Shown: in pieces, positions 2,622-29,738 of the stretch
Layout: every line of letters begins with the position of its first letter
Position numbering within the stretch: the stretch's first letter is position 1
DNA from: Kutzneria sp. 744
GTDB taxonomy: Bacteria > Actinomycetota > Actinomycetes > Mycobacteriales > Pseudonocardiaceae
Direction: 5' to 3'
DNA: 39,313 bases
NCBI RefSeq assembly: GCF_000568255.1
Contig: NZ_KK037166.1
Location: 120,282 to 159,594 of the forward strand
Made by a program: the position numbers and the translations under genes
Notes under the pieces: model-generated
Told to the model about the DNA's origin: nothing
The model's database searches: none
Seen by the model: the letters and a program-made list of their open reading frames with translations, nothing else

Positions 2622-4313
2622 TCAGTCGGCGAGTTTGAAGGCGAGTTCGGTCTCCCACTGCGACATGTCGGACTGGACGCGGGGGTCGGTCTTGTAGATC
2701 TCGAGCCGGCAGGCGAACTTGTCGCCGGCCGGGGTCTGCTCGGCATCCCAGCGCAGGCCCTGGGCGTCGGTCCACTCGTTGAGGCGCTTGGTCACGCCGA
2801 GCAGCTCGCCGGGATGCCCGAGGTGGGTGACCGACACGTAGCGGCCGGCCGGGAGGACGTCGGCGAAGACCTCGCCGTCGTCCTCGACCGAGATTGGGGC
2901 GGAGACCGGGAAGCCGGCCTCCATCACCAGCTCCCCCGCCATGTCGATGACCAGGTAGCGGAAGAAGGGGGCGCCGGCGGGCTCGATGCCGCGCTCGGTG
3001 AGCCACGCGAACACCGCCGGCATGCGGTCGGCGATCTCGGGAATGGTCTGCATGGTCACAGTGCGCCGGATGCCGACGTAGGGCTGCGCGGCCCGTTCGA
3101 TCACGCTGGGCTCCATGGCCCGTCCTCTCGTCTCGGTCAGTCGTCTGGTCAGGAAGCGGCGGTCGGCCTGGGCGGTAGCCAACCCCAGCGCCCGCTCGTA
3201 CGCCACTGCCGCCTCGGCGTGGCGGCCGAGCCGGCGCAGGAAGTCGGCGCGGGTGGCGGGAAGCAGGTGGTAGCCGGGGATGTCGAGGCCGTCCAGCAGC
3301 GCGAGGCCGGCCGCCGGGCCTTCGGCCATCGCGACCGCCGCCGCGTGGTTGAGCCGGATGACGGGCGACGGCACGGCGACGGCGAGCTGGGCGTACAGGC
3401 GGGCGATCAGCGGCCAGTCCGAGCCGGCGGCGTGGCTGTCGGCGATCGCCGCCTGCAGTTGGTACGGACCGAGCCGAGCCAGCCTCATGACCCGCGCCAG
3501 CACCGCCCGCCCCTCGGCGATCTGCGTTGCGTCCCAACGACTTCGGTCCTGGTCGGCCAGCAGCACCACATCGCCGTCGGCGTCGAGGCGCGTGTCGCGG
3601 CGGGAGTCGTGCAGCAGCATCAACGCCAGCAGGCCGCCGGCCTCCGGCTCGTCCGGCATGAGCTGAACCAGCAGCCGGGCCAGCCGGATCGCCTCGTCGC
3701 ACAGCGCCCGGCGCACCGGCGTGCTGTACCCCTCGTTGAACATCAGGTACAGCACGCCCAGCACGGCGGTGGTGCGCTCGGGCAGCAGATGCGCCGGCGG
3801 CACCCGGTAGGGGATGCCGGCGTTGCGGATCTTCGCCTTGGCCCGCCCGACTCGCCGGGCCATGGTCGTCTCCGGCACCAGGAACGCCCGGGCGATCTCG
3901 GCCATGCCCAGCCCGGCCAGCGTCCGCAGCGCCAAAGCCACCTGCGCCTCGAACGCCAACGCCGGGTGGCAGCAGGTGAAGATCAGCCGCAACCGGTCGT
4001 CCTCGATGCCCGCGTCGTTCACCAGCGGTTCCGACGGCTCGTGCATGGTCACCGCCACCTCACGGAGCTTGGCCGCGCCGACCGCCTCCCGACGGATCCG
4101 GTCGGTGGCGCGGTGCCGGGCGATCGTGGTCAGCCACGCGCCCGGTTTGCGCGGCACTCCCTCCACCGGCCACTGCCGGACCGCGGCCGCGAACGCCTCC
4201 TGGGCGCACTCCTCGGCCAGGTCCCAGTCGCCGGTGACCCGGATCAACGTCGCCACGACGTGGCCCCACTCCTCCCGGAAGGCGGCGGAGACGTCGGCGT
4301 CGACCGAGGTCAC
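2622..4313 (-). CDS. ECF42-type RNA polymerase sigma factor fused to a GyrI-like effector-binding domain
   Basis: The 563-residue protein starts at GTG 4313, overlapping the TGA of the upstream DGPF gene (GTGA). Residues ~1-165 are ECF sigma-2/sigma-4 regions (DLAEECAQEAFAAAVRQW; the LGMAEIARAFLVPETTMARR helix-turn-helix). Residues ~180-395 form the helical, TPR-like extension typical of ECF42 factors. From M400 a complete GyrI/AraC-type ligand-binding domain (~164 aa, start MEPSVIERAAQPYVGIR) follows in the same frame with no stop between. That Met is preceded by GAGAGGA at ribosome-binding distance, so the domain may descend from, or still be made as, a separate protein. ECF42 factors are normally paired with DGPF proteins, as here. 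The fusion implies small-molecule input to a sigma factor (inference); a lost stop or sequencing error is the alternative. Confidence 0.88.
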   Translation of the reverse strand: MTSVDADVSAAFREEWGHVVATLIRVTGDWDLAEECAQEAFAAAVRQWPVEGVPRKPGAWLTTIARHRATDRIRREAVGAAKLREVAVTMHEPSEPLVNDAGIEDDRLRLIFTCCHPALAFEAQVALALRTLAGLGMAEIARAFLVPETTMARRVGRAKAKIRNAGIPYRVPPAHLLPERTTAVLGVLYLMFNEGYSTPVRRALCDEAIRLARLLVQLMPDEPEAGGLLALMLLHDSRRDTRLDADGDVVLLADQDRSRWDATQIAEGRAVLARVMRLARLGPYQLQAAIADSHAAGSDWPLIARLYAQLAVAVPSPVIRLNHAAAVAMAEGPAAGLALLDGLDIPGYHLLPATRADFLRRLGRHAEAAVAYERALGLATAQADRRFLTRRLTETRGRAMEPSVIERAAQPYVGIRRTVTMQTIPEIADRMPAVFAWLTERGIEPAGAPFFRYLVIDMAGELVMEAGFPVSAPISVEDDGEVFADVLPAGRYVSVTHLGHPGELLGVTKRLNEWTDAQGLRWDAEQTPAGDKFACRLEIYKTDPRVQSDMSQWETELAFKLAD

Positions 4314-4636
4314 GGCGCGAACAGCGGCCGGATCTCGATCATCCCGTAGCCGGCGGCCGGGTGCCGGGAGGCGATCTCCACCGCCTCGTCCAGATCGGCG
4401 CACTCGATCAGCACGAGCCCGCCGATCTGCTCCTTGGTGTCGGCGAACGGGCCGTCGGTCAGCAGCACCTCGCCGTCCCGCACCCGCACGGTGGTCGCCT
4501 CGGTCGGCGGCCGCAGGCCGGCTCCGCCGCGGACGACGCCGCGACCGGCCATCTCCTCCGACCAGCCGCCGCAGCCCAGGGCCAGCTCATCGGGCGTGGG
4601 CTCGTGGTCACCGGCGATCAGCAACGCGTACTGCAT
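4310..4636 (-). CDS. DGPF/YCII-related domain protein, partner of ECF42 sigma factor
   Basis: A 108-residue protein carrying the namesake motif LLTDGPFADTKEQIGG, in a YCII-like ferredoxin-type fold. The start ATG at 4636 follows a strong Shine-Dalgarno (GAGGAGGGACC). The stop overlaps the GTG of the sigma factor gene, so the two are translationally coupled. Genes of this family are typical neighbours and regulatory targets of ECF42 sigma factors. The biochemical role of DGPF proteins is not established; YCII relatives have been suggested to have dehydrogenase- or lactonase-like activity. Confidence 0.9.
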   Translation of the reverse strand: MQYALLIAGDHEPTPDELALGCGGWSEEMAGRGVVRGGAGLRPPTEATTVRVRDGEVLLTDGPFADTKEQIGGLVLIECADLDEAVEIASRHPAAGYGMIEIRPLFAP

Positions 4637-5126
4637 GGTGGGTCCCTCCTCGGATCGGTTCGCACCGACACGTCGAATGGAACCACCCGGGTCGGACACT
4701 CACGCGCCGGAGACTTCGAGCGTGTCGCGCTGCCACCCGTCGACCAGAGGATGCCGGACCTTGCTGCGGATGCAGTCCGTAGCGACGAGGTGACGGTAGC
4801 CATCCGGAGTGAGACGGCCGGCCCACACCCTTGCGCCTGGCGGCGACCGTGACCGCTGGCCCGACCGGCCGGGGCCGTTCGTAGGGTCGAATCACGTCGG
4901 TGATTCCCGCACCCGGCACCCGAATGGCGGGACAACGGCGCATGCACCTGACAGACCAGTCCTGTGTTTGCCTATCGGCAAGAACCCTTCACGCATTTGG
5001 CGCGGGTCGCGTGCGAATTGTCCCGTGCGACCGAACGGAGGTGTTTCCGTGCGTGAAGACGTCACTACCGTTGGCGACGCAATTTCCCGAGTGTGTGTCC
5101 GTTCAATGGGGACTGGGAAGGGATCC
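4637..5126. other. 490-bp divergent intergenic region without a supported gene
   Basis: The region lies between the DGPF gene (minus) and the secreted protease (plus) and must carry both promoters. No frame has convincing coding character. The one structured element is an inverted repeat with 7-bp arms at 4889-4895 and 4900-4906 (GAATCAC-GTCG-GTGATTC), a possible operator. Confidence 0.4.
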
Positions 5127-6179
5127 ATGAAACTCGGCAAACAATTCGCCGCGTTCGGTGCGGCGGCGGCCGCCGCGTTGCTGGCGGCCGGGCTGGCCAC
5201 GGGCGGCGCGAGCGCCGCGACGGGGACCGACGTCGTGTCCGGCCCGGCCGGGCTCAGCCCGGACGTGGCGGCCACGACGCACGGCTCCGGGGTCGACGCG
5301 CACGAGCAGGCGCTGGCCGCCTACTGGACGCCGGACCGCATGAGACAGGCCAGACCGGAGAGCGAGATCCCGGCCGTGAAGAACGCGGACGGGTCCAAGT
5401 CGCAGGCACAGAGCGTGCCGGCCGGACCAGGCCAGGTCGCCGCGGCCGCGCCGAAGGCCGAGCCCAAGGCGGCGGGCGGCGGCGGCTCGCCGGACGTGGC
5501 TCCGGCGGCGTACTACCCGAACTACCCGGTCGGGCACCCGGTGGCCCGCACGTACGGCAAGGTGTTCTTCACCAGCTTGGGCCTGAACTACGTGTGCTCG
5601 GCCACGGTGGTCAACACCGAGGGCAAGTCCGAGGTCTGGACGGCCGGGCACTGCGTGTCCGACGGGCAGGCCTGGAACACCAACTGGACGTTCGTGCCGA
5701 ACTACGCCAACGGCTCCGCGCCCTACGGCTACTGGTACGCCTACCAGCTATGGACCACCACGGCCTGGTTCAACAACAACAACGACTTCGCCAACGACGT
5801 CGGCTCGGCCGTGCTGTACCGCACCAACGGCTGGCGCATCACCGACTACCTGGGCGGCCAGGGCATCGCCTGGAACTACCCGATCGGCCAGTACGTGTAC
5901 GCCTTCGGCTACCCGCAGGCCGCGCCGTTCACCGGCTGCTGCCTGGTCGGCGAGAACGGGTCGACCTACGACGGCGGCGGCGGCACGATCTACATGGTCA
6001 ACTACATGACGGGCGGCTCGTCCGGCGGGGCCTGGCTGATGTCGTTCGACGGCAATTGGGGGTACATCAACGGGCACAACGACTTCAAGTACAACTCGTT
6101 GCCGCAGTACATGTACTCGCCCTACTACGGAAACCAGGTGTTGAGCCTCTACAACACCGTCCGCAATATCTCCACATGA
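5127..6179 (+). CDS. Secreted trypsin/V8-like serine peptidase (S1 family)
   Basis: A 350-residue pre-protein. ATG 5127 follows GGGAAGGGATCC and begins a signal peptide (MKLGK, then an Ala/Leu-rich core to about residue 35). A Pro/Ala-rich propeptide-like segment runs to ~125. The catalytic domain shows WTAGHCV (His ~175), an Asp within NDFANDVGSAVLY (~224), and GGSSGGAW (nucleophile Ser ~300). It should be an exported endopeptidase; substrate preference is not visible. The upstream frame is open but lacks coding character, so the signal peptide decides the start. A 12-bp-stem hairpin follows the stop. The gene appears monocistronic. Confidence 0.92.
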   Translation: MKLGKQFAAFGAAAAAALLAAGLATGGASAATGTDVVSGPAGLSPDVAATTHGSGVDAHEQALAAYWTPDRMRQARPESEIPAVKNADGSKSQAQSVPAGPGQVAAAAPKAEPKAAGGGGSPDVAPAAYYPNYPVGHPVARTYGKVFFTSLGLNYVCSATVVNTEGKSEVWTAGHCVSDGQAWNTNWTFVPNYANGSAPYGYWYAYQLWTTTAWFNNNNDFANDVGSAVLYRTNGWRITDYLGGQGIAWNYPIGQYVYAFGYPQAAPFTGCCLVGENGSTYDGGGGTIYMVNYMTGGSSGGAWLMSFDGNWGYINGHNDFKYNSLPQYMYSPYYGNQVLSLYNTVRNIST

Positions 6180-6204
6180 TTCACGCGTAGACCGATCGGA
6201 TGAC

Positions 6205-6233
6205 CCGGGGATGCCGTCACGCGGCATCCCCGG
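6205..6233 (+). terminator. Hairpin terminator after secreted protease
   Basis: A perfect 12-bp GC-rich stem (6205-6216 with 6222-6233) with loop TCACG starts 25 bp after the protease stop. No long T tract follows, as is usual in actinomycetes. Confidence 0.8.
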
Positions 6234-6275
6234 CATTGGTGCAACCGAAAACCGGTCGGTCGTCGTCCGGGAGAC

Positions 6276-6722
6276 ATGATGCGAAGAATTCACGCCGGCG
6301 CCGCGCTGGGCCTGCTGCTGCTCCTGGCCTGCTGCGGCACCGCCCAGCCCGGCTCCGGCAACGGCGCCGTCACCTCCACGAGCCTGCCCATGCCCACCGG
6401 CGACTTCCCCACCGGCCTCAACCACGCCACGCCTGATCCCACCGTGGTCGAGCTGCGCCCGACCCGCTTCGACCGGGCCACCGCCGGCGACGGCGACAAC
6501 CTCGTCGTCCAGTACACCGCCGGCGGCCGGGCCGAGTGCGCCAAGCTGGGCCGGGTGGACGTCGCCGAGACCGACGACGCCGTCACCGTGACCGTGCGAC
6601 TGGGCCAGGCCCCGGGCGCGAAGTGCGGCGGCGAGCAGCCGATGATCGCCGCCACCTTCGAGACCACCGTGACCCTCAAGGCTCCGCTGGGCGCCCGTCA
6701 GGTCCGCGACGGGGCGAGCTAG
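6276..6722 (+). CDS. Small lipoprotein of unknown function
   Basis: A 148-residue protein with a short basic N-terminus, a Leu-rich core and a lipobox-like LLACCG (Cys at ~20 or 21), so it is probably lipidated and surface-anchored. A low-complexity Pro/Thr/Gly linker follows, then a ~90-residue domain with two Cys (AECAKLG and GAKCGGEQ) that could form a disulfide. I recognise no family. GGGAGAC precedes tandem ATGs at 6276 and 6279; either could start. The TAG stop shares CTAG with a possible convergent remnant. Confidence 0.75.
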   Translation: MMRRIHAGAALGLLLLLACCGTAQPGSGNGAVTSTSLPMPTGDFPTGLNHATPDPTVVELRPTRFDRATAGDGDNLVVQYTAGGRAECAKLGRVDVAETDDAVTVTVRLGQAPGAKCGGEQPMIAATFETTVTLKAPLGARQVRDGAS

Positions 6723-10429: not shown

Positions 10430-11755
10430 ATGGTGATCTTCGTGAAGCAGGTCGTGCAGGTGCGGCTGTTGCCGTGGCCCGAGCACGCACAGGCGTTGTT
10501 GGTCACCCTGCACACATGCAACGCGGCCGCGTCCTGACTGGCCGGGCAGATGCATGCCGATCAGGTGTTCCGGAAGTTCGATGTGCAGAAGCGTTTCTAC
10601 GGTCAGTTGCGGGAGCGGTTCGGGTTGGCCGCGCAGCCGGCGATCCGGGTGATCGGCAAGGTCGTCGACGCCTACACGGCACGCAACGCGAACCTGAAGG
10701 CCGGCAACTACGGGCGGCCCGGGTCGGACCGCCGTCGCAAGGTGCACGACACACCGATCATGTTCCGCCCGCAGGCCGGGCAGCCGTTCGACGCCCGCTG
10801 CCTGTCCTGGCAACTCGGTGACGCCGGCCGTGAGGGCACAGTGTCGATCTGGACCACAGCCGGCCGGCTCAAGGACGTGCGGCTCGCCGGAAGCGCCGTC
10901 CAGATGGCCCTGTTGCGATCCCGATCGATCGGGGAAACCGATCTGGTGTATCGCGACGGAATGTGGCTTTTGCACGCCGCCGTCGACATCATCGAGACCT
11001 CCCAGCGCGAACCGTTGAACGGATTTATGGGCGTTGACCTGGGTATCGTCAACATCGCCACCACCTCTGACGGCGATCAGTTCTCCGGGTCGCGTCTGAA
11101 CCGCCACCGCCGGCGTCAACTGCGGCTGCGGAGGCGGTTGCAGGCCAAGAAGACCTCTTCCGCGCGGCGGCTGCTGAAGAAACGCCGACGCAAGGAGGCC
11201 CGGTTCGCCACCGACGTCAACCACCAGGTCAGCAAGAACATCGTGGCCGAGGCTGAACGCACCGGACACGGGATCGCCGTCGAGGAGTTGACGGGAATCC
11301 GCGCGCGGGTACGGCTTCGCAAGCCCCAACGGGCCACGCTGCACAGCTGGGCATTCGCCCAGCTCGGACAGTTCCTGACCTTCAAAGCCCAGCGAGCCGG
11401 TGTGGCGGTGGTGCAGGTCGATCCGGCCTACACCTCCCAGACCTGCCACGTCTGCGGGCACGTCGACAAACGCAACCGCCGCAGTCAGGCGGTGTTCCAC
11501 TGTGGCCGGTGTGACTTCGTTGGGCACGCCGACCACAACGCGGCGCTCAACATCGCAGCACGCGGTGTGCAGCGCTGGGGCGAAGTCAAGCGTCCACACG
11601 CAGCGCCCATCCTGGCAGCCAGGACGGCAGCAGCAAGCCTACGAACCGCCGCCAGCGGCGGTCGGCACCCTCGTTCGTTGACGGACGAGCCCATGACAGT
11701 CAGCGAAGGGCCCGCCGCGCGGTGGGCGGGATTGGTTAGGGTCGTGGCGTGGTGA
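10430..11755 (+). pseudogene. tnpB: Solitary TnpB (IS200/IS605-type RNA-guided nuclease) with early nonsense codon
   Basis: From ATG 10430 the frame reads MVIFVKQVVQVRLLPWPEHA through CNAAAS and meets TGA at 10535-10537, exactly where relatives have Trp (NAAxW). The same frame then continues as LAGQMHADQVFRKFD and stays open to 11755. All three RuvC acidic positions are visible: Asp in GVDLGIVNIATTS, Glu in IAVEELTGIR, Asp in GHADHNAALNIA. So is the zinc ribbon (CHVCGH and CGRCDF). Re-initiation at ATG 10550 would lose the first ~40 residues of the WED domain. No tnpA is present. The frame ends inside the start of the next gene, so its last ~60 codons may be element end rather than protein. 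Confidence 0.85.
11645..11730 (+). ncRNA. Candidate omega RNA / right-end hairpins of tnpB element
   Basis: Three hairpins follow one another at the 3' end of tnpB. A: 11645-11651 with 11656-11662, a perfect 7-bp stem. B: 11670-11678 with 11681-11689, 9 bp including one U-G pair. C: 11711-11716 with 11725-11730. In TnpB systems the guide RNA scaffold overlaps the tnpB 3' end and the guide is the flanking DNA just beyond the element. The exact boundary cannot be fixed without comparing empty sites. Confidence 0.4.
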
Positions 11756-19178: not shown

Positions 19179-19200
19179 CGCCCTGACCACGGTCAGGGCG
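19179..19200. terminator. Bidirectional terminator hairpin
   Basis: Arms 19179-19188 and 19191-19200 pair over 10 bp (CGCCCTGACC/GGTCAGGGCG), followed by TTT on the plus side. It lies between convergent genes and overlaps the last codons of the minus-strand Trypco1 gene. Confidence 0.8.
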
Positions 19201-19516
19201 TTTCGGCGTTGTGCCACTTGAGTTTCACCTCGAAGTGACCCTGCAGCCCGGTCCGCGCGATGAAGGCGCCGGCCTGGGCGTCGAACCTGACGCCGAACTT
19301 GAGCTCCACCTCGTCGGGCCGGTGCGGCATCGCCAAGAACTGCGTGAGCGCGGTCGTGGCGGTGTCCCGCACGCGAGCCAGGCCCTGCTCCAACGTCTGG
19401 GTGGCGTCCTGGAACATGTCGGCGGCGCGGCCGACGCGGGCCAGCCCGGGCTGGGGCTCGACCTCGACGAGCACCTCTCCCCCGTCCTCCAGCGGAATCC
19501 GCATCAGCTCGGTCAT
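19193..19516 (-). CDS. Trypco1 (trypsin-co-occurring domain 1, CU044_2847 family) protein
   Basis: A 107-residue protein. It begins MTELMRIPLEDGGEVLVEVE, has a central helix (ATQTLEQGLARVRDTATTAL), and ends with a beta-rich part (VELKFGVRFDAQAGAFIA, then GHFEVKLKW). This is the CU044_2847/Trypco1 pattern, found near trypsin-like proteases in actinobacterial signalling or conflict operons. It is the last gene of the six-gene minus-strand operon; a trypsin-like protease is the first. It starts 12 bp after the substrate-binding protein stop, with GAGAGGGAGCGACC as ribosome-binding site. Presumed adaptor or substrate of the protease (inference). Confidence 0.85.
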   Translation of the reverse strand: MTELMRIPLEDGGEVLVEVEPQPGLARVGRAADMFQDATQTLEQGLARVRDTATTALTQFLAMPHRPDEVELKFGVRFDAQAGAFIARTGLQGHFEVKLKWHNAETP

Positions 19517-19528
19517 GGTCGCTCCCTC

Positions 19529-20761
19529 TCAGCCACACGGCGCGGACAGCCGGGCCTCGTCGGCCAGGCCGGTACGGACTTGGTCGAGGCCGGACAGGAT
19601 GTCGCCGAGCCGGCCGGGATCGCCGAGGAACTCCAGCACGGCACGGGAGAACGCGTCGGCCATCGCCGCCGGCATCACGTCCGAGGCGTCGAGGCACAGC
19701 CGTGGGGCCGAGGCCAGCACCGCCGCGATCCGGGGACTCACGGATCCTTTGTAGACGCTGGCCGCCAACACCTTCTGGTTGACCGAGAAGGCGCTGCTGT
19801 CCTGCCGCGCCGGCCACACCGCCTGCGCCTGGGCACCGGCCAGGTAGGTCATGAACTCGCGGGCCAGCGGGTTGTCGGTGAACAGCCCGGCCACGTTGAC
19901 CGACACCTCCCACGCGTCCGGCACGTGCCCGATGGCCGGGAACGGGAAGAAGTCGTAGTCCGCGCCCTTGGGGTACGAGCCGGTGGCGAAGGAACCCTGG
20001 TGCTCAAGGTGACAGCCGGGCGGGGTGGCGAACATCTGCTTGCCGGCGTCGCCGAAGTAGGTCAGCAGGGCGGCGGACCGCATCCCCGGTGTGCCCTGTG
20101 TCGCCAGCAGTTGGCCCCACGTCGTCCAGGCGGCCCGCACGGCGTCCGCCGTCCACGGCAGGGCGCCGTTGGCCCAGGCCTCGTACACGTCGGGGCCGGA
20201 CTGGTGCAGCAGGATGTCCTCGATCCAGTCGGTGCCGGGCCAGCCGGAGGTGGAGAACGCCTCCATGCCCAGGCACCAGGCCGGTTTCACCCTGACCGTG
20301 TAGTCGAGCAGCCCCGGCCAGCTCCTCGCCGAGGCGTCGGGCGGGTTCTTCTTGTTGAACCACACGATGCTCTTCAGGTCCGCCTTCACCGGCACCGCGT
20401 ACAGGTCCGGGGTGCCGAGCCGGAGCAGGGTCCGCCACTGCTGGCTGTACTCGGCGTCGGAGACGCCGGAGATCTTGTGCAGGCCGTCGGCGGTGTAGCG
20501 GGCCAGTTCGCCGGGACTGGACAGCACGGCCACGTCCGGTGGCTGTCCTTTTTGGACATCGGCCTGGAGCACCTGGTTCACCGCGGGCGTGCCGATGTAG
20601 TCGATGGTCACGTCGTGCTGGGCCTCGAAGCCGGCGAACATCGCGCGGAAGGACTGCTCCTCCGCGCCGCTCCACGGCCCGAGCACGGTGAGTTCGGTGC
20701 GGGCCGAGCAGCCGGTCACCAGACCGGCGACCAGCGCGATGGCCAGCAGGAGTCGCTTCAC
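19529..20761 (-). CDS. Extracellular substrate-binding lipoprotein (family 1 type), signalling operon
   Basis: A 410-residue precursor. GTG 20761 starts a lipoprotein signal ending at LVTGCSA (Cys ~18). The mature part is a periplasmic-binding fold: TELTVLGPWSGAEEQSFRAM, PPDVAVLSSPGELARY, VPVKADLKSIVWFNKKN and VNVAGLFTDNPLAREFMTYL. Carbohydrate-type (family 1) ligands are likely, but none is provable. No ABC permease or ATPase genes are nearby. It overlaps the four-TM membrane protein gene by GTGA, so it is more likely a ligand sensor for that protein, comparable to mycobacterial GlnH acting on GlnX and PknG (inference). Confidence 0.88.
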   Translation of the reverse strand: MKRLLLAIALVAGLVTGCSARTELTVLGPWSGAEEQSFRAMFAGFEAQHDVTIDYIGTPAVNQVLQADVQKGQPPDVAVLSSPGELARYTADGLHKISGVSDAEYSQQWRTLLRLGTPDLYAVPVKADLKSIVWFNKKNPPDASARSWPGLLDYTVRVKPAWCLGMEAFSTSGWPGTDWIEDILLHQSGPDVYEAWANGALPWTADAVRAAWTTWGQLLATQGTPGMRSAALLTYFGDAGKQMFATPPGCHLEHQGSFATGSYPKGADYDFFPFPAIGHVPDAWEVSVNVAGLFTDNPLAREFMTYLAGAQAQAVWPARQDSSAFSVNQKVLAASVYKGSVSPRIAAVLASAPRLCLDASDVMPAAMADAFSRAVLEFLGDPGRLGDILSGLDQVRTGLADEARLSAPCG

Positions 20762-21831
20762 GACCGGTACCTGTATTCGTCGATCCGGGGCTGTAGGCCG
20801 ACCAGTGCCAGCCCGGCGACACCCAGGGCCAGCACGGGGATCAGCACGAGCAGCCAGCTCAGGTCGGTGGCGTCGGCGAACCCGGCCGTGGCGTCGGCGG
20901 CGGTCGTGGTGGCCGCCGGGGTGGACTGGGGCGCGGCCGGTGCCGTGTCGGGAAGCGTTGCGCCGCAACCGGTCGGGCTGCAGGCTTGCCGGACGGCGAG
21001 GATCAGGCCGCGCTGGGCGGTGGTGGACACGGCATTGGCCCGCTGGTCGGTGTTGCTGACGTACGAGGTGAGGACGGCGTCGGCGGCATGGGCCCGGTCG
21101 GCCAGCACGAGCCCGCTGGCCGTGGCCCCGATGAGCAGGACCAGCAGCGCGGTCGCGCCGATCAGCCCGACGTTGAACCGCCGCCCGAACCTCCGCCACA
21201 GATACCGCTGCGTGTACACGAGCAGCAGCGACAACAGGATCGACGGCACCAGCCAGGCCAGCACGGTCCACCGGTTCAGCCAGCCGTCGGACAGCTGCTG
21301 GTCCAGCTCCTTGCGTTGCAGCGAAGCCAGGCCCTCCAGGTGCGCGAGGGTCTGCTGGCTGCCGTACAGGGACCGCGCCGCGTACCAGAGATCCGTCAGG
21401 TACAGATCCCGCGTCCCTTCACGGAAGTGCGTGTCCGCGGCACTCATCCAGCCGCTGTAGGTCGTGAGCAGGCCGGCGATCAGCTGGAGCTCGCCGCTGC
21501 CGGTGGAGCCGCCCGCGTTGTCTCCGGCCGCCCGGGCCAGATCCTGCTCGGCCACGGCCAGGTCGGTCGTGTACTCCTCACCGGCCCCGACGAGCGTGGC
21601 CCCGCCGTCCACGAAGCTGTTCACAGCCGCCAGGTGGGCCTGCATCAGCGCCGCCTTGGCCGAAGCGACGTCGAGCACGGCGGGCGCGGTCCGATCCCGC
21701 ACGGTCCCCAAAACCGACTGCGTGGCGGCGAACGACCACACCGACATGGCCAGCACCACCACGGTCAGCCCGAGCAGGCCGAGGCGTAACCGGAGCAGGT
21801 CGCGGCGGGTGGTGCTGACCTTCTCGGTCAT
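20758..21831 (-). CDS. Four-TM membrane sensor-like protein (GlnX-like)
   Basis: A 357-residue protein. TM1 is at ~17-36 (LGLLGLTVVVLAMSVWSFAA), followed by a ~150-residue extracytoplasmic helical domain resembling four-helix-bundle sensors. Further hydrophobic segments lie at WTVLAWLVPSILLSLLLVY, VGLIGATALLVLLIGATASG and, near the C-terminus, WLLVLIPVLALGVAGLALVG. An Ala/Thr/Pro-rich stretch precedes the last one. The layout and company (substrate-binding lipoprotein plus PknG-like kinase) match mycobacterial GlnX; primary similarity could not be tested. ATG 21831 overlaps the vWA stop (ATGA), and its own stop overlaps the lipoprotein GTG. Confidence 0.82.
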   Translation of the reverse strand: MTEKVSTTRRDLLRLRLGLLGLTVVVLAMSVWSFAATQSVLGTVRDRTAPAVLDVASAKAALMQAHLAAVNSFVDGGATLVGAGEEYTTDLAVAEQDLARAAGDNAGGSTGSGELQLIAGLLTTYSGWMSAADTHFREGTRDLYLTDLWYAARSLYGSQQTLAHLEGLASLQRKELDQQLSDGWLNRWTVLAWLVPSILLSLLLVYTQRYLWRRFGRRFNVGLIGATALLVLLIGATASGLVLADRAHAADAVLTSYVSNTDQRANAVSTTAQRGLILAVRQACSPTGCGATLPDTAPAAPQSTPAATTTAADATAGFADATDLSWLLVLIPVLALGVAGLALVGLQPRIDEYRYRS

Positions 21832-23231
21832 GGCGCGACCTCGAAGGTGTGGCCGCAGTTGACGCAGAACTTCGCCCTGTGCGGGGACAACTTGGGGCAG
21901 TTCGGGCAGGTCCGCGGCTGGCCGTCGGGCGCGGCGGTCGGCGTCACCGGGGCGTCCGAGGTGGTGTTGCTGGCCAGGCTCAGCACCGCGGAGAAGGCGT
22001 CGCGCGGCCGCATGTGCTCCTTGAGCGTGACCTCCCCGGTCTCCGGGTCGACGTCGATGAGGCGGCTCAGGCGGCGCAGGGTGTCCTCGTTGCCGAGCCG
22101 GGTCGCCAACCGGAACGCCTCGCCCCACTCGGCTGCGGCGCCGTCGCGGTCCTCCTCGCCGAACCGGATCCAGCCGGCGTTGAGCCGGTGACCCAGGTCG
22201 GCCTGCACGGTGTGGCGCAGCACGGTCTCGTCGACGCGGGTGGCCAGCCGCTCGTCGTCGGTGACGTAGCCCAGGATCGGGACGGGCAGCGGCACGGTGA
22301 CCGAGTCGTCCGGCGGGACCAGCTCCACCCGCCCCAGCTGGAGATCCTCGTACCAGGGCCGGCCGTTCATGTCCACGGCGAGCGACAGGTGGTACTCCCG
22401 GGCCTCCTCGCCCCACGCGCCGGTCGACAGCTCGACCACGCCGCGTTTGACGGCCACGATCCGGTCGGTCAGGTCGATCTCGGCCGGAAACTCCTGCCTG
22501 AGCACCTCGACCCGGGAGAAAGTCGGCGTCACGATCCGCAGCCGCATGTCCGGCACGGCCTTGTCGGTCGCCGTGCGGATGAGCCGGCGGAACTCCGTGG
22601 GCAGGTCGTGATCGTCCAGCACGGCGTCGGCCGTGCCACGCAGCACCGCGGCGATGCGGCGCAACTCGTCGGGCTCCCAGTCGTCGCCGATTCCCCTGGC
22701 GTCGCAGGTGAATCGGCCCTCGCAGCTGTCCAGCACCTCGTGCAGGGTCTCGGCCGGCTCGCTCTCGTTTCGACCGTCGGTGAGCAGCAGCGCGTGCCGC
22801 ACGGCGTCGGGACGCTGGTCGAGCAGGTCGCGGGCCAGCGTGAGCCAGGTGCTCATCGCGGTGGCGCCCATGGCGAACATGTGCGCGGCGGCGGCCTTGG
22901 CCCGCCGCCGGTTCTGGTCGTCGGCCGGCACGAGGCGAGGCGTGTCGGGGAACCGCACGGTGGCCTTGCCGGTGCCCTCCACCAGCGCGAACCAGGTGCC
23001 GTCGGGTAGCGCGTCGATCGCCGCCGCGGCTGCCTTGCGGGCGTTGACCATCCTGGTCGGCGGCTCGTCCATGGAGCTGGAGCAGTCCACCACCAGCACC
23101 TCGGCCGTCGGTCGCGTGACCGCCTTCTCCAGCGCGGCGGCCCGGACCGTGAGGGCCACGGGCATTCGGGTGTCCGAAGTGGACAGATATCGGCTCTGGT
23201 TGAGCTCAAGGGAGAATTCGCTCACCGTCAC
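21828..23231 (-). CDS. vWA-domain protein with C-terminal zinc ribbon
   Basis: A 467-residue cytosolic protein. A vWA domain with an intact MIDAS follows a short N-terminal strand: DCSSS from D49, a Thr in GATAMSTWL, and Asp in LLLTDGRNE. The middle is beta-rich (~200-350), followed by a helical segment similar to vWA proteins of Ter/MoxR-like systems. The C-terminus is a zinc ribbon (CPNC...CVNC). It starts at GTG 23231 inside the kinase stop; GTG 23225 is possible. Likely a metal-dependent interaction module, and a plausible phospho-target or scaffold for the neighbouring kinase (inference). Confidence 0.9.
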   Translation of the reverse strand: MTVSEFSLELNQSRYLSTSDTRMPVALTVRAAALEKAVTRPTAEVLVVDCSSSMDEPPTRMVNARKAAAAAIDALPDGTWFALVEGTGKATVRFPDTPRLVPADDQNRRRAKAAAAHMFAMGATAMSTWLTLARDLLDQRPDAVRHALLLTDGRNESEPAETLHEVLDSCEGRFTCDARGIGDDWEPDELRRIAAVLRGTADAVLDDHDLPTEFRRLIRTATDKAVPDMRLRIVTPTFSRVEVLRQEFPAEIDLTDRIVAVKRGVVELSTGAWGEEAREYHLSLAVDMNGRPWYEDLQLGRVELVPPDDSVTVPLPVPILGYVTDDERLATRVDETVLRHTVQADLGHRLNAGWIRFGEEDRDGAAAEWGEAFRLATRLGNEDTLRRLSRLIDVDPETGEVTLKEHMRPRDAFSAVLSLASNTTSDAPVTPTAAPDGQPRTCPNCPKLSPHRAKFCVNCGHTFEVAP

Positions 23232-25423
23232 GTCCTCGTCCGTCGCCGTACGGTGTTCGCCGCGTCGATCAGCACGTGGCTGCGGGCGATGTCGGCGTGG
23301 TCGGCCAGCACGCGCAGCGCCGCCTCCTGCCGGTCCCGCAGGCCGCCGTCGGTCACCGGCTCCCCCAGCAGCCGCCACGTCCCGGTGTCCGGGGTCGGCC
23401 GGGCCAGGCGGGCCCGCGCGACCTCGAACAGGGTGGCGGTCAGCCGGACCCGGGTCTCGCCGTTGTCCTCGCCGCCGTCGAGGTAGAGCCGGGGCAGGCG
23501 GTCGGCGGCGGCGTTGATGTCCGCCACCGACGGCAGCTCGCCGTCGATGCGGGCCAGCAGCACCCGCACCGCCGCCACCTGCGCCGAGTCGTAGTGCCGG
23601 GACAGCCGGGGCAGCTCGTCGAGAGCCTCGACCGCGGCGGCCCGGTCGTGCTCGCGCAGAGCGATGCGAGCCAGCCCGAACAGGGCGCTGGCCTGCTCGT
23701 CGTCACGCCGCCAGACCACCTTGTAGTGCCGCTTCGCCTCGGCCAGATCTCCTTGCCACTCCAGGCAGAAGCCGATGGCCAGCTTGGGCGCCACCTCGCC
23801 CGGCACGTCGGCGTAGACGTCGCGGAAGGCCCGCAGCGCGCCGGGCAGGTCGTTGTCGGCCAACGCCAGCAGGCCGTGATGCCAGCGGATCCGCCAGTCG
23901 TGCTCGGACCACTCGCCGAGCATCGACGACGCCCGGTCGACGCGCCGACGGGCCTCGGCCGGCTCACCGAGCTCGATGTGGGCGCGGGCGGCGGCCAGGT
24001 CCAGCTCCACCGACGTGGCCGGGAACTCGTCGTACTCACGCAGCAACTGGCGGGGTGCGGCGACCGACCTGGTCGCCAGGAACGTGGCCACGGGATCGGT
24101 GTCGGCCGGCCTCGGCATCGGCAGCCGGGCCGCCGCGACGGGCGCGGTCGGCAGGCCGTCGTCGATGGTGCCGTCGGGCTCCTCCGCCTGGGTCCAGCGG
24201 TCGAGGCCCGGCACGGTGCCCAGGCAGGTGTCCAGCAGCTCGTGGGTGTTGGCGAAGCGGGTCGACTCCATCCGGTACGGCTTGCGTTCCCGCAGCGACA
24301 GCAGTTCCCGGTGCACGCCGTCGAGCTGCTCGGACATCTCGGCGGCGGAGGCGAAGCGCTGCTCGAACGGCGCGACGGCCCGGTTGAGCAGCCGGTCCAT
24401 GGAGTCGATGGCGAAGGCCACCCGGTCGCGGTCCGGCTCGTGCTGCTTGGCGTTGTCGAACAGCCTTCGCAGCGTCCGGCCGACGGTGTGGACGTCGGAC
24501 CGCACGGTCAGCCCGTGCTGCGCGATCTCCTCCGGGCCCACGTTGTAGTCGGGATGGCCGACCTTCGCGCTGTGCCGGTCGCCGATCCGCCGCGTGGCGC
24601 CCAGGTCGATCACCTTGAGCCGGTTGCCGGTGCGCATCACGTTGTCCGGCTTCATGTCGCAGTAGAGCAGGCCGTCGTCCAAGGTGTGCAGGTAGTGCAG
24701 CGCGGCCAGGATGTAGTGGCCGCAGGCGGTCACGTCCTCCAGGCGCAGCGGCTCGTTCGACTTGAGGATCTCCTGGAGCGTCCGGCCGGCCACGTACTCC
24801 ATGACGATGTACTCGTCGGTGCGGCCGGTGGCATCGTCGGTGTGCTCGACGTAGGTGATGATCCGGACGATGGTGGAGTGGTCGAGCCGGGTCAGCGTGT
24901 CCCGTTCCCGCCGGGTCAGCTGCATCGCCACCGCGTCGGTCGGGTTGATCACGCCCTTGAGCACCACCCGGAGGTCCGGCAGGCGCAGGTCCCGGGCCAG
25001 GTAGAGCCAGCCCTGGCCGCCGACGGCCAGCCAGCCGATCACCTCGTAGCGGGCGTTCGCCACCTTGTCGCCGGGATGGAGCTTGGGCACGAAGGAGAAC
25101 GGGGTGCGGCAGTGCGGGCAGAAGCCGGTCACCATGGGCGGCTGCGCGCCGATGCGGCGGCCGACCTCCTTGCCGCAGGAGCCGCAGAACCGGCGCTCCT
25201 CCGGATAGGCGGGATCGGGGAGCAGGCTCGGCTCGCCGACCGGGATCGAGGGCAGCGCGTAGACGTCGCTGCCGCGCCAGGAACTGGTCTCCGGCGGCGG
25301 CGTGGGTTCGGCCGCCGGCTCGGGCTCGCGGGGCGGCGTGGGCCGGGGTCTCTTGCGGCGCCCGCAGACGTCGCAGAACCCGGTCGGCCCCACCGGCTGG
25401 CCGCAGCACATGGTGTCGGTCAT
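23228..25423 (-). CDS. PknG-like Ser/Thr protein kinase (zinc-rubredoxin + kinase + TPR)
   Basis: A 731-residue protein with PknG architecture. Zinc-binding Cys pairs lie at the N-terminus (CCG, CDVCG) and in a rubredoxin-like module (FCGSCG, FCPHC; ~80-110). The kinase domain spans ~125-390: VVLKGV (Lys ~156), LLYCDMKPDNVM (catalytic Asp ~256, replacing HRD by YCD as in PknG) and VIDLGATR (DLG). TPR-like helices cover ~440-690. PknG couples amino-acid sensing to central metabolism in mycobacteria. Here it sits between a protease and a vWA gene with ATGA and GTGA overlaps, arguing for a multi-protein complex. No TM segment, so membrane input must come via the four-TM protein. Confidence 0.92.
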   Translation of the reverse strand: MTDTMCCGQPVGPTGFCDVCGRRKRPRPTPPREPEPAAEPTPPPETSSWRGSDVYALPSIPVGEPSLLPDPAYPEERRFCGSCGKEVGRRIGAQPPMVTGFCPHCRTPFSFVPKLHPGDKVANARYEVIGWLAVGGQGWLYLARDLRLPDLRVVLKGVINPTDAVAMQLTRRERDTLTRLDHSTIVRIITYVEHTDDATGRTDEYIVMEYVAGRTLQEILKSNEPLRLEDVTACGHYILAALHYLHTLDDGLLYCDMKPDNVMRTGNRLKVIDLGATRRIGDRHSAKVGHPDYNVGPEEIAQHGLTVRSDVHTVGRTLRRLFDNAKQHEPDRDRVAFAIDSMDRLLNRAVAPFEQRFASAAEMSEQLDGVHRELLSLRERKPYRMESTRFANTHELLDTCLGTVPGLDRWTQAEEPDGTIDDGLPTAPVAAARLPMPRPADTDPVATFLATRSVAAPRQLLREYDEFPATSVELDLAAARAHIELGEPAEARRRVDRASSMLGEWSEHDWRIRWHHGLLALADNDLPGALRAFRDVYADVPGEVAPKLAIGFCLEWQGDLAEAKRHYKVVWRRDDEQASALFGLARIALREHDRAAAVEALDELPRLSRHYDSAQVAAVRVLLARIDGELPSVADINAAADRLPRLYLDGGEDNGETRVRLTATLFEVARARLARPTPDTGTWRLLGEPVTDGGLRDRQEAALRVLADHADIARSHVLIDAANTVRRRTRT

Positions 25424-26840
25424 GTCCGTCGCCGCACCTCAGCGACGTAGGCGTCCACGAGCGCGCGGGCGGCCTTGAGCTCGCACGGGTGGGCTTCGAG
25501 GGCCAGCAGGGCGCCCCGGTACAGCTCGGCCAGCGACTCGTCCTCCATCAGGCCGTGCTCGACCGCCTTGGCGTTGTAGCTGATCAGACGGCCGCGCTGG
25601 AGCTCGAAGTCCCGCAGCGCCTCGTCGTTCTCCTCGGCCGCCCGCTGCATCGCGTCCAGGCCCCGCACCAGCTTGCGCTCGTAGTGGTGCAGCGCCCGGG
25701 CCAGCTTGGTGGCCTCCTTGTCCCGGACGTTGGAGCGCAGGATGGCCAGCGTGAACTCCATGTCCGCGGCCAGGGCGGGAATGTCGTCGAGATCCGGCCG
25801 CGGCGTGAAGCGGGTGCGGATCATCGCCCGGCGACGACGGACCCGGCCCTCGTGGTCGGCGAGCTGTGCGACACCCCGGGCCAGCTCGTTCACCCGCTGC
25901 TGGAGCGCGTCGAACTGCCACTGCTTGGCCAGGATCGCCGACGGGGACGAGTCGTCGTCGAACTGGAGGACCACCGTCGCGCCCTGGCGGACCAGCGGCG
26001 CGACGACGTCGTCGAGCACCTGCTCGGGCCGGCGGGCCTGCTCGATGCCGGCGAAGCCGACCGACATGTGCCGGGTGGCCGACTGGAGGACCGGGGACAG
26101 CTCGGCCGCCGACTTCCCGCTGGCGTCGACGATCCGGCCGGCGTCCAGCGGCCCGATCTGGATCACCAGCACGCCGATGGTCGGCCGCCAGACGTCGGGC
26201 TCCACGTCGTCGCCGACCCACCGGTCCAGCGCCGGCACGTGCCGGCGGAGCGTGTCGATCGGGATGATCCACGCCAGATTCGACTCCAGGTAGGCGCTGA
26301 CCACCATGCCGACCACGGCGCCGCTGCCGTCGTCGACGGCGCCGGCGCCGCTGAAGCCTTCGCGGATGTGCTCGCTGCGTTCGACGTGGTCGAGTTGGAT
26401 CCACTCGCAGCCCGGGCCGCCGGTGCCGGCCAGCACACCGGACGCCCAGATGCCGAAGTCGTGGTCGACCGGGAAGCCGAAGGCGTGCACGGTTCGGTTG
26501 CGGGGCGCAGGAACGCGGTGCAGCATCGTGCCGGGCAGGTCGGTCGGCACGATGATCGTGAGCAGGGCGATGTCCGCGCCGCCACCGTCGAGTTCCGGGG
26601 CCCAGCAGCCGGGCACCACCTTGGCCGTGGCGTGCCGGCCCAGTTCGACCCATTCGGCCGTGATCTCGACGTCGTCACCGAAGTCGGCGGCGTTCTTGAC
26701 GACGTGGGCGCAGGTGAGGATGGCCCGCCGGTGAGGGCGATGCCGGCGCCGATGATGGTGCCGTGGCTGTCCTTGAGGCGGAGCCGCCACGGTTCAGCGT
26801 CGGGAGATCGCCCTGCTGCGGGTCCAGCGTCGATGCTCAC
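25420..26840 (-). CDS. Trypsin-like serine protease with helical C-terminal domain; N-terminal frameshift in this sequence
   Basis: GTG 26840 opens PWRLRLKDSHGTIIGAGIAL, the usual start of operon-linked trypsin-like proteases, ending LTG. The continuation, RAILTCAHVVKNAADFG, is in another frame, so one base appears lost in 26722-26735 (GGCGGGCC where GGCCGGGCC would restore it). Downstream the triad is intact: His in TCAHVV (~46), Asp in GADIALL (~90), Ser in GFSGAGAV (~164). Residues ~270-470 are a helical, charged domain without a named family. No signal peptide, so it is cytosolic. Starting at ATG 26790 gives an open but unnatural N-terminus. First gene of the operon; its stop overlaps the kinase ATG. 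Confidence 0.85.
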
Positions 26841-26969: not shown

Positions 26970-29738
26970 TCAGGCCGGCAGCTGCCAGCGCTGTTGCGGC
27001 TGGCCGTTGCAGTCCCAGATCTGCAACTGCGTGCTGTTGGCCGTGGACGCCGACGGATCATCGAGGCAGCGCCCGGAGTTCGGGTTCACTAGCGAGCCGT
27101 TGGCCCCGGCCTGCCACTGCTGCGCGCCGGTGCCGTTGCAGTCGTAGAGCTGGACCTTGGTGCCGTTCGTGGTGCCGGCGCCGGAGATGTCCATGCACTT
27201 GCCGAGCGCCTGCACCGTGCCGCCCGAGCCGACGGTCCAGGTCTGCGCGGAGGTGCCGTTGCAGGTGTAGATCTGCACCGCGGTGCCGTTGTTCGTGTTG
27301 GCGCCGGCGATGTCCACACACAGGTTGGAGCCGACACCGGCGACGATCGCGCCGGTGTGCCCGGTGCCGCCGTTGCCGGTGGTGGCCGTCCAGACGAAGG
27401 TGGTGTCGCCGGACGCCCCGGTGGAGTCGGTCGCCGTGACGGTCACGGTGCTGGTGCCGCCGGTCGTCGCCGTGCCGGAGATCGTGCCGTTGCCGCTGAT
27501 CGTCAGGCCGGCGGGCAGGCCCGTCGCCGTGAAGGTCAGGCTCTGGCCGCCGGAATCGGTGGCCTGCAAGGGAAGGCTGACCGCGGTGCCGACCGGGCTG
27601 CTCATGCCCTGGGGATTCGTCACGGTGACGGTGTTGCCGGCGTTGGTGCTGGTGACCGTGAGCGTGCCGGACAGCTGCGGGCCGGCGGAGGTGTTGCCGA
27701 CCGCGATCTGGTACGAGCCGAGGGCCGTGGTCCAGCCGTTGTTCCAGTAGGCCAGGTCATGCAGCGTGAGCGGGAAGCTGACCGTCGTGCTGGCGCCCGG
27801 CTGCAGCGTGACCTTGCTGAATCCCTTGAGCTGCAACGGAGGCTCGCCTGTGGTGGCCGGCGCGCCGACGTAGAGCTGCGGAACCTCGGAGCCGGCGCGG
27901 CTGCCGGTGTTGGTCACCGTGGCCGTCACCGTCGCCTTGCCGTGCGCGTCGAAGGCGCCGACCTGGAGGTTGCTGAAGCCGAACGTCGTGTAGGACAGGC
28001 CGAACCCGAAGGGGTACAGCGGGGCGATGTTCTGTGCTTGGTACCAGCGGTAGCCGACCTTCACGCCCTCCGAGTACTGCACGGTCCCGTTGCTGCCCGG
28101 CCACTGCGCCTGGGTGTGGGCCGGGACGTCGTTGAGGCTCTTGGGAAAGGTGACCGGCAGCTTGCCCGACGGGTTGGTGTCGCCGAACAGCACCGAGGCG
28201 ATGGCGTTGCCGTCCTCCTGGCCCGGGTACCAGGCCTCCAGGATGCCGGCCACGCTGTTCACCCACGGCATCGTCACGGCCGAGCCGGTGTTGAGCACCA
28301 CGACGGTGTTCGGGTTGGCCGCCGCGACCTGCGTGATCAGCGAGTTCTGCATGCCCGGCAGGTCGATGTTGCCGATGTCGCTGCCCTCGGACTCGTTGTA
28401 GCTGGCGAAAACGACCGCCACGTTCGAGTTGCGGGCCAGCGTGACCGCCTGGGCGATGTTGCCGGAGCTGTCGCCGGCCGCGTACTGCACGCTCACGCCG
28501 GAGCCGGCGCGGCTGGTGATGCCCTGCAACGGCGTGACCGTGCCCGAGGAGTTGACCCTCGCGCTGCCGCCGCCCGCGGTCTGCGGGGAGGTGCTGGCGT
28601 CCGCCCCGATCACCGCGATCGAGTGCGTGGCGGTCGTATCGAGCGGCAGGACATTGTTGTTACGCAACAGAACCGTGCCCTCGGCGGCGATCTGCCTCGC
28701 CGCCGTCTTGTGCGCCGTGGAGGTGACGGTCGCGCCGGTGTTGCCGGTGCGCGGGTTGTCGAACAGGCCGAAGGCGAACATCTCCGTCAGGATGCGGCTG
28801 ACCATGGCGTTCAGCGTCGCCTGGGTGACCTGGCCGTTCTGCACGGCCGTCTGCAGCGCGTTGCCGAAGTAGTCGCCGCCGGGCATCTCCTGGTCCATGC
28901 CGGCGTTGGCGGAGGCCACCGTGGAGTGCGTTGCGCCCCAGTCCGAGGTCACGAAGCCCGGGAAGCCGAACTGCGTGCGCAGCGGTCCGTTGAGCAGCGC
29001 CGAGTTCTGGCAGGCGTACGTGCCGTTGACCGTGCTGTAGGAGCACATCGCCGAGGAGGCCGCGCCCTGCTGCACGCCGGCCTGGAACTGCGGCAGGTAG
29101 ATCTCCTGCAGCGTCCGGTTGTCGACGATGGCGTTGTCGGACGGCGTGTTCCGGTTGGTCTCCTGGTTGTAGACGCCGATGTGCTTGATCTGCGCCAGCA
29201 CGCCCGTGCCCTGCACGCCGCGGATCTCCGCCGCGCCCAGTTGGCCGGCCAGGTAGGGGTCTTCCGTCAGCGACTCAAAGGCCCGGCCCCAGCGCGGGTC
29301 GCGGACGATGTTGACCGTCGGGCCCAGGTTGACGTTGGCCCCCTTGCCGGCCTCTTCGCTGCCCACCAGCTGGCCGTACTGGGCCTCCGCGTCGACGTTC
29401 CACGTCGCCGCGGCCGCCACCGGCGCCGGTAACTGGGTGACGCCGCCGAGGTTCTCGCCGACGCCGGCCGGGCCGTCCTCCAGGCCGAGCGCCGGGATGC
29501 ACAGGGCCGGGACGGCCGGCGTGTTGCCGACGTAGCCGCCTCCCGTGCCGTGCAGCAGACTGATCTTCTGGGCCTGGCTCATCTGGGCCAGCACCTGGGC
29601 CACTCTCTGCGGCACCGGGGCGGTCGAGCCGACCCACGGGCAGGTCGCGTCGGGCGCCGCGACCGCCGATGTCGGGGTCAGGGCGGTGACGGCAAGTCCT
29701 ATGGCTGCGGCTACGCCCAGCCAGCGACGTGCGGACAC
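26970..29738 (-). CDS. Secreted GH3 beta-glucosidase with Ig-like and ricin-B lectin (CBM13) domains
   Basis: A 922-residue exported enzyme starting at GTG 29738 after GGAGAGACA, with a signal peptide to ~AVAA (28). The GH3 N-domain shows LGLEDGPAGVGENLGG, DPRWGRAFESLTEDPYLAG, IKHIGVYNQE and the nucleophile motif GFVTSDWGATHS (Asp ~265). The C-domain follows, then an Fn3-like domain (VTNTGSRAGSEVPQLYV), a putative Ig domain (~700-785, FTATGLPAGLTISGNGTISG) and three QxW-type ricin repeats to the C-terminus. It should release terminal sugars from plant beta-glucans outside the cell, tethered by the lectin. A CebR-like box lies in its promoter. Confidence 0.95.
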   Translation of the reverse strand: MSARRWLGVAAAIGLAVTALTPTSAVAAPDATCPWVGSTAPVPQRVAQVLAQMSQAQKISLLHGTGGGYVGNTPAVPALCIPALGLEDGPAGVGENLGGVTQLPAPVAAAATWNVDAEAQYGQLVGSEEAGKGANVNLGPTVNIVRDPRWGRAFESLTEDPYLAGQLGAAEIRGVQGTGVLAQIKHIGVYNQETNRNTPSDNAIVDNRTLQEIYLPQFQAGVQQGAASSAMCSYSTVNGTYACQNSALLNGPLRTQFGFPGFVTSDWGATHSTVASANAGMDQEMPGGDYFGNALQTAVQNGQVTQATLNAMVSRILTEMFAFGLFDNPRTGNTGATVTSTAHKTAARQIAAEGTVLLRNNNVLPLDTTATHSIAVIGADASTSPQTAGGGSARVNSSGTVTPLQGITSRAGSGVSVQYAAGDSSGNIAQAVTLARNSNVAVVFASYNESEGSDIGNIDLPGMQNSLITQVAAANPNTVVVLNTGSAVTMPWVNSVAGILEAWYPGQEDGNAIASVLFGDTNPSGKLPVTFPKSLNDVPAHTQAQWPGSNGTVQYSEGVKVGYRWYQAQNIAPLYPFGFGLSYTTFGFSNLQVGAFDAHGKATVTATVTNTGSRAGSEVPQLYVGAPATTGEPPLQLKGFSKVTLQPGASTTVSFPLTLHDLAYWNNGWTTALGSYQIAVGNTSAGPQLSGTLTVTSTNAGNTVTVTNPQGMSSPVGTAVSLPLQATDSGGQSLTFTATGLPAGLTISGNGTISGTATTGGTSTVTVTATDSTGASGDTTFVWTATTGNGGTGHTGAIVAGVGSNLCVDIAGANTNNGTAVQIYTCNGTSAQTWTVGSGGTVQALGKCMDISGAGTTNGTKVQLYDCNGTGAQQWQAGANGSLVNPNSGRCLDDPSASTANSTQLQIWDCNGQPQQRWQLPA

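Follow-up and report, generated by a model that had tools for sequence, protein, structure and literature searches.

A PknG/GlnX-like operon of Kutzneria with a putative proteolytic output

PknG is best known for controlling 2-oxoglutarate metabolism. Sensing by GlnH, GlnX and PknG has been studied in mycobacteria and in Corynebacterium glutamicum (PMC6069109, PMC9769921), and C. glutamicum GlnX is described as having four transmembrane segments (TMs) and two periplasmic domains, with tetra-helical bundles (PMC9769921). Here we analyse a six-gene operon in a 39,313-nucleotide stretch (the window) of the genome of Kutzneria sp. 744, which consists of a single contig of 11.65 Mb. Like the GlnH-GlnX-PknG operon of Mycobacterium and Corynebacterium, it encodes together a solute-binding protein (SBP) that is a lipoprotein, a GlnX-family membrane protein with four TMs (4TM protein) and a PknG-type kinase. 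Unlike that operon, it has an SBP of another family, a shorter 4TM protein and a kinase on a separate branch, and it adds a von Willebrand factor A (vWA) protein, a trypsin-like protease and a Trypco1 protein. The vWA protein, trypsin-like peptidase, Trypco1 and an inactive STAND-type domain recall the MoxR-vWA ternary systems (VMAP, iSTAND) of Kaur et al. 2020 (PMC7159879), from which the operon differs in that no MoxR was seen in the window and an outward-facing receptor and a PknG-like kinase are found instead. We read the operon as a PknG/GlnX/GlnH-type receptor-kinase system in variant form, the output of which would be proteolysis, and assign this reading a probability of roughly 55%. 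No description of such an operon was found in the literature searched on Trypco1, on PknG/GlnX/GlnH and on vWA/trypsin combinations, of which figures, tables or supplements could hold one.

The operon and its relatives

All six genes are encoded on the minus strand, ordered protease, kinase, vWA, 4TM, SBP and Trypco1, with intergenic distances of -4, -4, -4, -4 and +12 bases. A first-pass annotation, made from the letters of the window, had proposed this order with 4-bp overlaps at the first four junctions, and computing the gaps gave the same arrangement. The domain identities that it had guessed agree with Pfam: Trypsin_2 for the protease (26840-25420), PknG_rubred, Pkinase and PknG_TPR for the Ser/Thr kinase (25423-23228), VWA_3 and VWA_3_C for the vWA protein (23231-21828), SBP_bac_1 for the lipoprotein (20761-19529; E 8.3e-14) and PF19493 for Trypco1 (19516-19193; E 8.2e-28).

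A search for the 4TM protein in 200 genomes of the order gave matches in 28 of them. Close homologues, with at least 35% identity, are present in 15 genomes including that of Kutzneria sp. 744, one of them (in G090) being split; the best matches in the other 13 have 27-33% identity. Among the loci surrounding the 14 non-self close homologues, nine harbour all six genes (one with the split 4TM gene) and three harbour five, Trypco1 being undetected, and the relative gene order is kept in all 14. The gene set is conserved far beyond chance. The conserved synteny called for by the first-pass annotation is borne out. Within the genus, the protease was found in three of six other genomes.

We also scanned named genomes with the vWA alignment, took the best 80 of 553 relatives and classified their loci (denoted by L numbers) with profiles; as these are the best of 553, the counts that follow are not prevalences. 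Complete sets of trypsin, kinase, vWA, 4TM and SBP genes, called type A, make up 49 of the 80 loci, and 20 of these 49 also carry Trypco1. A sister set, type B, comprising PknG, PP2C, vWA, FHA and GlnX, is present in 20 loci, with GlnH in 17 and a helical protein in 19 of them; type B loci match the type B profiles by construction, since those profiles were seeded from them. No complete type A locus gave a PP2C or FHA match with the profiles, FHA proteins being the class to which the PknG substrates OdhI and GarA belong, and no trypsin or Trypco1 was detected in the 20 type B loci. The rest are two hybrids (L103 and L109), a type A locus without trypsin (L089), seven short loci that end before the set is complete, and one with the vWA gene only (L138).

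The type B operon of L134 (2571-10868) reads GlnX-GlnH-helical-PknG-PP2C-vWA-FHA, with Pfam matches to SBP_bac_3, the PknG domains, PP2C_2, VWA_3_C and FHA; its gene set is fuller than that of the known PknG operon, for which the literature consulted gives three genes. Its double-zinc-ribbon matches are above the cut-off for PP2C and below it for FHA and the kinase. This sister operon has in common with the Kutzneria operon a homologous 4TM protein, the kinase, the vWA protein and the helical domain, and differs from it by PP2C and FHA instead of trypsin and Trypco1, and by an SBP_bac_3 protein. The hybrids recombine the sensor half with the cytosolic half: in L103, trypsin, kinase and vWA genes accompany GlnH, GlnX and Trypco1 on the other strand, and in L109, whose contig ends early, the PP2C/FHA cytosolic set is found with a type A 4TM protein and SBP. 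Two of the 49 type A loci, L096 and L099, have a GlnH-type gene as well, and L099 also has a GlnX gene on the opposite strand.

A class-wide search with the 4TM protein (24 of 394 genomes) is unusable for prevalence, the family being mixed with GlnX. The SBP is a poor operon marker: 75 of 396 genomes of the phylum have matches at E <= 1e-25, mostly with 27-37% identity, which are probably SBPs of ordinary importers.

The receptor and the kinase

The 4TM protein (21831-20758, minus strand) is a short, GlnX-like protein of 357 residues, for which no Pfam family exceeded its cut-off. Its topology, four TMs with a helical extracytoplasmic part, was judged by eye from the sequence. The profile of the type A proteins aligned by hhalign with a GlnX alignment, which included four GlnX proteins encoded beside canonical pknG (L050, L051, L052 and L055), at 99.8% probability and E 2.9e-28 over 226 columns covering the N-terminal two thirds, and the NCBIfam GlnX family NF058618 matches the window protein at E 6.7e-29. 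The likeness to GlnX that had been guessed is therefore upheld, and these comparisons identify the protein as a divergent GlnX homologue. Both families share a short C-terminal tail with an R-x-x-E-Y core; of 47 type A 4TM proteins searched without anchoring to the end, 46 have this motif and that of L094 has a near form. The structural model (predicted local distance difference test score, pLDDT, 90.9; predicted template modelling score, pTM, 0.84) is all-helical with very long helices, including 7-74 and 221-284. Foldseek returned nothing at E <= 0.001 for this model. Helical-bundle sensors of chemoreceptors and histidine kinases, PcaY_PP and HK9, reached single-chain probabilities of 0.92-0.97, but at non-significant E-values of 0.4-2, the best E-value being that of an unrelated TTYH channel; unlike chemoreceptors and histidine kinases, the 4TM protein has no cytoplasmic signalling domain.

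The lipoprotein had been taken for a counterpart of GlnH, an assignment that we reject since the Pfam families differ. It matches SBP_bac_1 and related SBP models only, and the profile of its family found AcbH as the best solved chain (E 5.5e-14), followed by a glucose-binding protein and NagB; the GlnH proteins of L134 and L050 are SBP_bac_3. As judged by these matches, the lipoprotein is a family-1, sugar-type SBP. A lipobox-like motif was found in 29 of 50 SBPs. Of the 21 without it, four are fusions and that of L080 looks like a lipoprotein that the pattern overlooked; by eye, most of the 21 are hydrophobic over some stretch close to the script-chosen start.

In four Streptomyces loci (L077, L079, L084 and L095), the 4TM protein and the SBP form a single polypeptide, in which a hydrophobic stretch precedes the SBP. 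These fusions favour sensing over transport, as the first-pass annotation had argued from the lack of a permease, and we likewise found no permease among the six operon genes and the 20 flanking open reading frames (ORFs) scanned. A role of the SBP as an importer component was rejected. Together with the hybrids, the fusions provide good evidence that the SBP and the 4TM protein form an exchangeable sensor unit.

In the window kinase, the rubredoxin, kinase and PknG TPR domains all score above the Pfam cut-offs. Residues K156, E173, D256, N261 and D273 are kept in all 49 kinases compared (those of the window and of 48 loci; a length filter removed L086, where the kinase is split). A tree of 84 kinases, computed by a quick method with Shimodaira-Hasegawa-like approximate likelihood ratio test (SH-aLRT) supports, is divided by a branch of length 0.68 and support 100, with 21 sister-type kinases, seven canonical ones and that of L109 on one side, and all 52 type A kinases, two from minimal operons and that of hybrid L103 on the other. 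Type A kinases do not group with the canonical PknG of the same bacterial family. Kutzneria sp. 744 itself has one kinase of each sort, type A and canonical, the latter in a glnX-glnH-pknG locus. The nearest relatives of the window kinase and of the vWA protein are Kutzneria proteins.

The protease and its cytosolic partners

In the window, the protease gene starts at 26840 in one frame, but its catalytic part is read in another, with a break near 26728-26718. The frame is uninterrupted at this position in the proteases of two Kutzneria relatives (L064 and L065). A second gene of this genome, the canonical glnX located next to glnH and pknG (L005, 5856-7180; C1:8890891-8892173), is likewise distributed over two frames, so that an indel error in the assembly is the likely, if unproven, cause of the break. 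The protease was aligned with 12 orthologues, and its search profile included the window sequence, the first residues of which are in the wrong frame. The frame break, the sister PP2C/FHA operon and the eroded domain described below go beyond the first-pass annotation.

The model of the L064 protease (pLDDT 88.9) comprises a trypsin-like beta domain (about residues 19-210), an alpha/beta domain (222-296) and helices (301-465), and its best fold matches are HtrA, MucD and DegS. Of the 49 proteases, 47 have an intact catalytic triad. As for the middle domain, Pfam gave no identification, with a single NACHT match (E 0.13) in one of 39 members. A profile built from 18 orthologues matches proteins outside these operons, of which seven were seen to retain a Walker A motif; the genome search gave E-values of 2.6e-14 or lower for four of these seven. 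In the printed alignments, the P-loop of these relatives falls on a lysine-free stretch of the protease profile, and no GxxxxGK[ST] motif occurs in residues 180-420 of any of the 49 proteases. Because of its match to P-loop relatives, Pfam giving none, we identify the middle domain as STAND-type. Predicted from sequence, the protease is thus a trypsin followed by an eroded STAND-type domain and a C-terminal helical domain. The middle domain of the window protein is shortened, covering positions 107-169 of the 170 in the profile (E 1.7e-5). A STAND-type ATPase with a P-loop domain related to it is encoded elsewhere in the same genome (L153, C1:23858-24304); WD40 scores above the cut-off in this relative, and AAA_16 and nSTAND1 below.

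For the helical C terminus, scores against the free helical protein of type B operons were 57-72 bits in the loci printed, and the reverse search, with the type B profile on type A proteases, gave 19-112 bits, weak in some. Since the protease carries a helical domain that is found beside PknG in sister operons, it looks like a part of the kinase module. Elsewhere this helical adaptor follows a Pkinase domain (L109, 3529-5622, a Dactylosporangium metagenome-assembled genome) or a different N-terminal domain with no Pfam family (L089, 5382-6680, Actinomadura chibensis), so the domain that precedes it varies. The latter domain looked cyclase-like from its motifs, but Pfam gave no family for it.

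The metal ion-dependent adhesion site (MIDAS) residues are intact in all 50 vWA sequences, and the four Cys residues of a zinc-ribbon-like C-terminal end are all present in 49 of them. The nearest solved chain is 4fx5 (E 2.7e-126).

Trypco1 was named for adjoining trypsin-like peptidases of VMAP systems (PMC7159879). The window protein scores 97.3 bits against PF19493 (cut-off 24.6), and an alignment of 10 sequences was made. In 60 genomes of the family, there are 24 Trypco1 matches, 10 of which reach at least 92 bits; nine of these 10, and none of the 14 weaker ones, lie within 8 kb of a match to the protease middle domain. Conversely, several strong middle-domain matches have no Trypco1 nearby, such as those in G607 and G083 and one of the two in G602. 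The tie between Trypco1 and the trypsin-like protease proposed at first thus stands for a subset of loci and does not extend throughout, and Trypco1, not detected in many complete loci, is not essential. Its profile was seeded from Pseudonocardiaceae-type loci and may miss divergent members. A second Trypco1 gene is present in the same genome (L004, C1:6810985-6811227), with no trypsin recognised by eye in the surrounding 3.2 kb.

Proposed mechanism and alternatives

We envisage that a tethered family-1 SBP senses a ligand outside the cell, probably a sugar-like one, and engages the helical sensor of the GlnX-like 4TM protein. The signal would travel inwards through the helices of the latter and its short conserved C-terminal tail, which might contact the TPR part of the kinase. 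The kinase would then switch a putative cytosolic assembly, possibly by phosphorylating one of its members, in which the protease (trypsin, eroded STAND and helical domains) joins the MIDAS-type vWA protein and, as a putative partner of the protease, Trypco1; once switched, this assembly would cleave a target. The receptor half of this proposal draws on homology to the studied system and on the fusions, and the operon content suggests the switching of the complex by the kinase. A broader version is more tentative, and we hold it at clearly below even odds: an external ligand would act through the PknG-like kinase and a vWA switch on a dead-STAND trypsin mounted on a swappable helical adaptor, one chassis driving either a phospho-switch (PP2C, FHA) or proteolysis (trypsin, Trypco1).

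Should a protease be a further output of the PknG receptor-kinase chassis in many actinomycetes, kinase sensing would be linked to regulated proteolysis, a link for PknG of which we found no description in the portions of the literature searched. The Trypco1, vWA and trypsin components of predicted conflict systems would also gain an outward-facing input. The operon offers compact pairs for testing, namely SBP and receptor, tail and TPR, and protease and Trypco1.

A receptor-kinase system with proteolytic output finds support in the gene content and its conservation, the GlnX homology, the SBP family, the fusions, the catalytic residues, the protease domains and the swapping of modules, as well as in the likeness of the protease's helical part to the free protein of sister operons and the proximity of strong Trypco1 matches to the protease middle domain. 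Several observations weigh against it. The protease is frame-broken in the window assembly, that of L072 (Solihabitans fulvus, 4962-6530) has lost all three triad residues in an operon that is kept, and that of L088 has lost the triad Asp. The NCBIfam GlnX match amounts to 101 bits, under the curated cut-off of 250. Of the 49 complete type A loci, 20 have a detected Trypco1 gene, all of them outside Streptomyces, which accounts for 19 of the 49. By eye, no conserved phosphosite is apparent in the vWA or Trypco1 alignments. Lastly, two of the 14 loci of the order consist of kinase, 4TM and SBP genes only, a sensor and kinase without a protease.

These minimal operons, which also lack vWA and Trypco1, fit an arrangement of two modules in one operon with no direct wiring, where the SBP, 4TM protein and kinase would regulate metabolism like canonical PknG, and the protease, vWA protein and Trypco1 would merely be co-expressed. 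The additional presence of a canonical glnX-glnH-pknG locus in the genome points the same way. On the other hand, the protease bears the helical domain that adjoins PknG in sister operons, five genes stay together in 49 of the 80 loci, and the type A kinases form a branch of their own; we consider independent modules doubtful, though they are the best of the alternatives.

Less probable still is a role in phage defence or cell suicide after the manner of MoxR-vWA systems, with the kinase replacing the MoxR ATPase and sensing freeing a self-destructive protease. According to Kaur et al. 2020 (PMC7159879), VMAP ternary systems also combine trypsin, Trypco1 and vWA, and a different MoxR-vWA class has an inactive STAND protein as its third component; the variable N-terminal domain of the helical protein (trypsin, Pkinase in L109, another in L089) would also suit such a role. 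However, the sensor faces outwards, and no MoxR was found among the six operon genes and the 20 flanking ORFs of the window, the other loci not having been scanned with a MoxR model. Membership in a MoxR-vWA system was rejected, as there is no MoxR AAA+ ATPase beside the vWA gene in the window. The PADLOC matches of the kinase, to PD-T4-6 and MAD6 (best E 1.6e-30), cover the kinase domain only, that of the protease is weak (E 8.1e-6), and the other four proteins have none. The broad conservation of the operon also seems unlike that of defence loci with fast turnover. A transport locus, in which the SBP would feed an unlinked ABC importer with the 4TM protein only as a scaffold, is very improbable: SBP_bac_1 proteins usually serve importers and family-1 relatives are common in the phylum, but no permease is present among the flanking ORFs scanned, the SBP is fused to the 4TM protein in four loci, and hybrid loci exchange it with GlnH/GlnX.

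Other genes of the window include, directly upstream of the operon and on the same strand, one for a family-3 glycoside hydrolase with a ricin-type lectin domain (26970-29738). Further away are an IS605 OrfB/TnpB-like gene with a Cas12f1-like TNB domain (10550-11755), followed by S9 and S66 peptidase genes, and a single reading frame (2622-4403) that encodes a Sigma-70-like factor with DUF6596 together with a GyrI-like domain.

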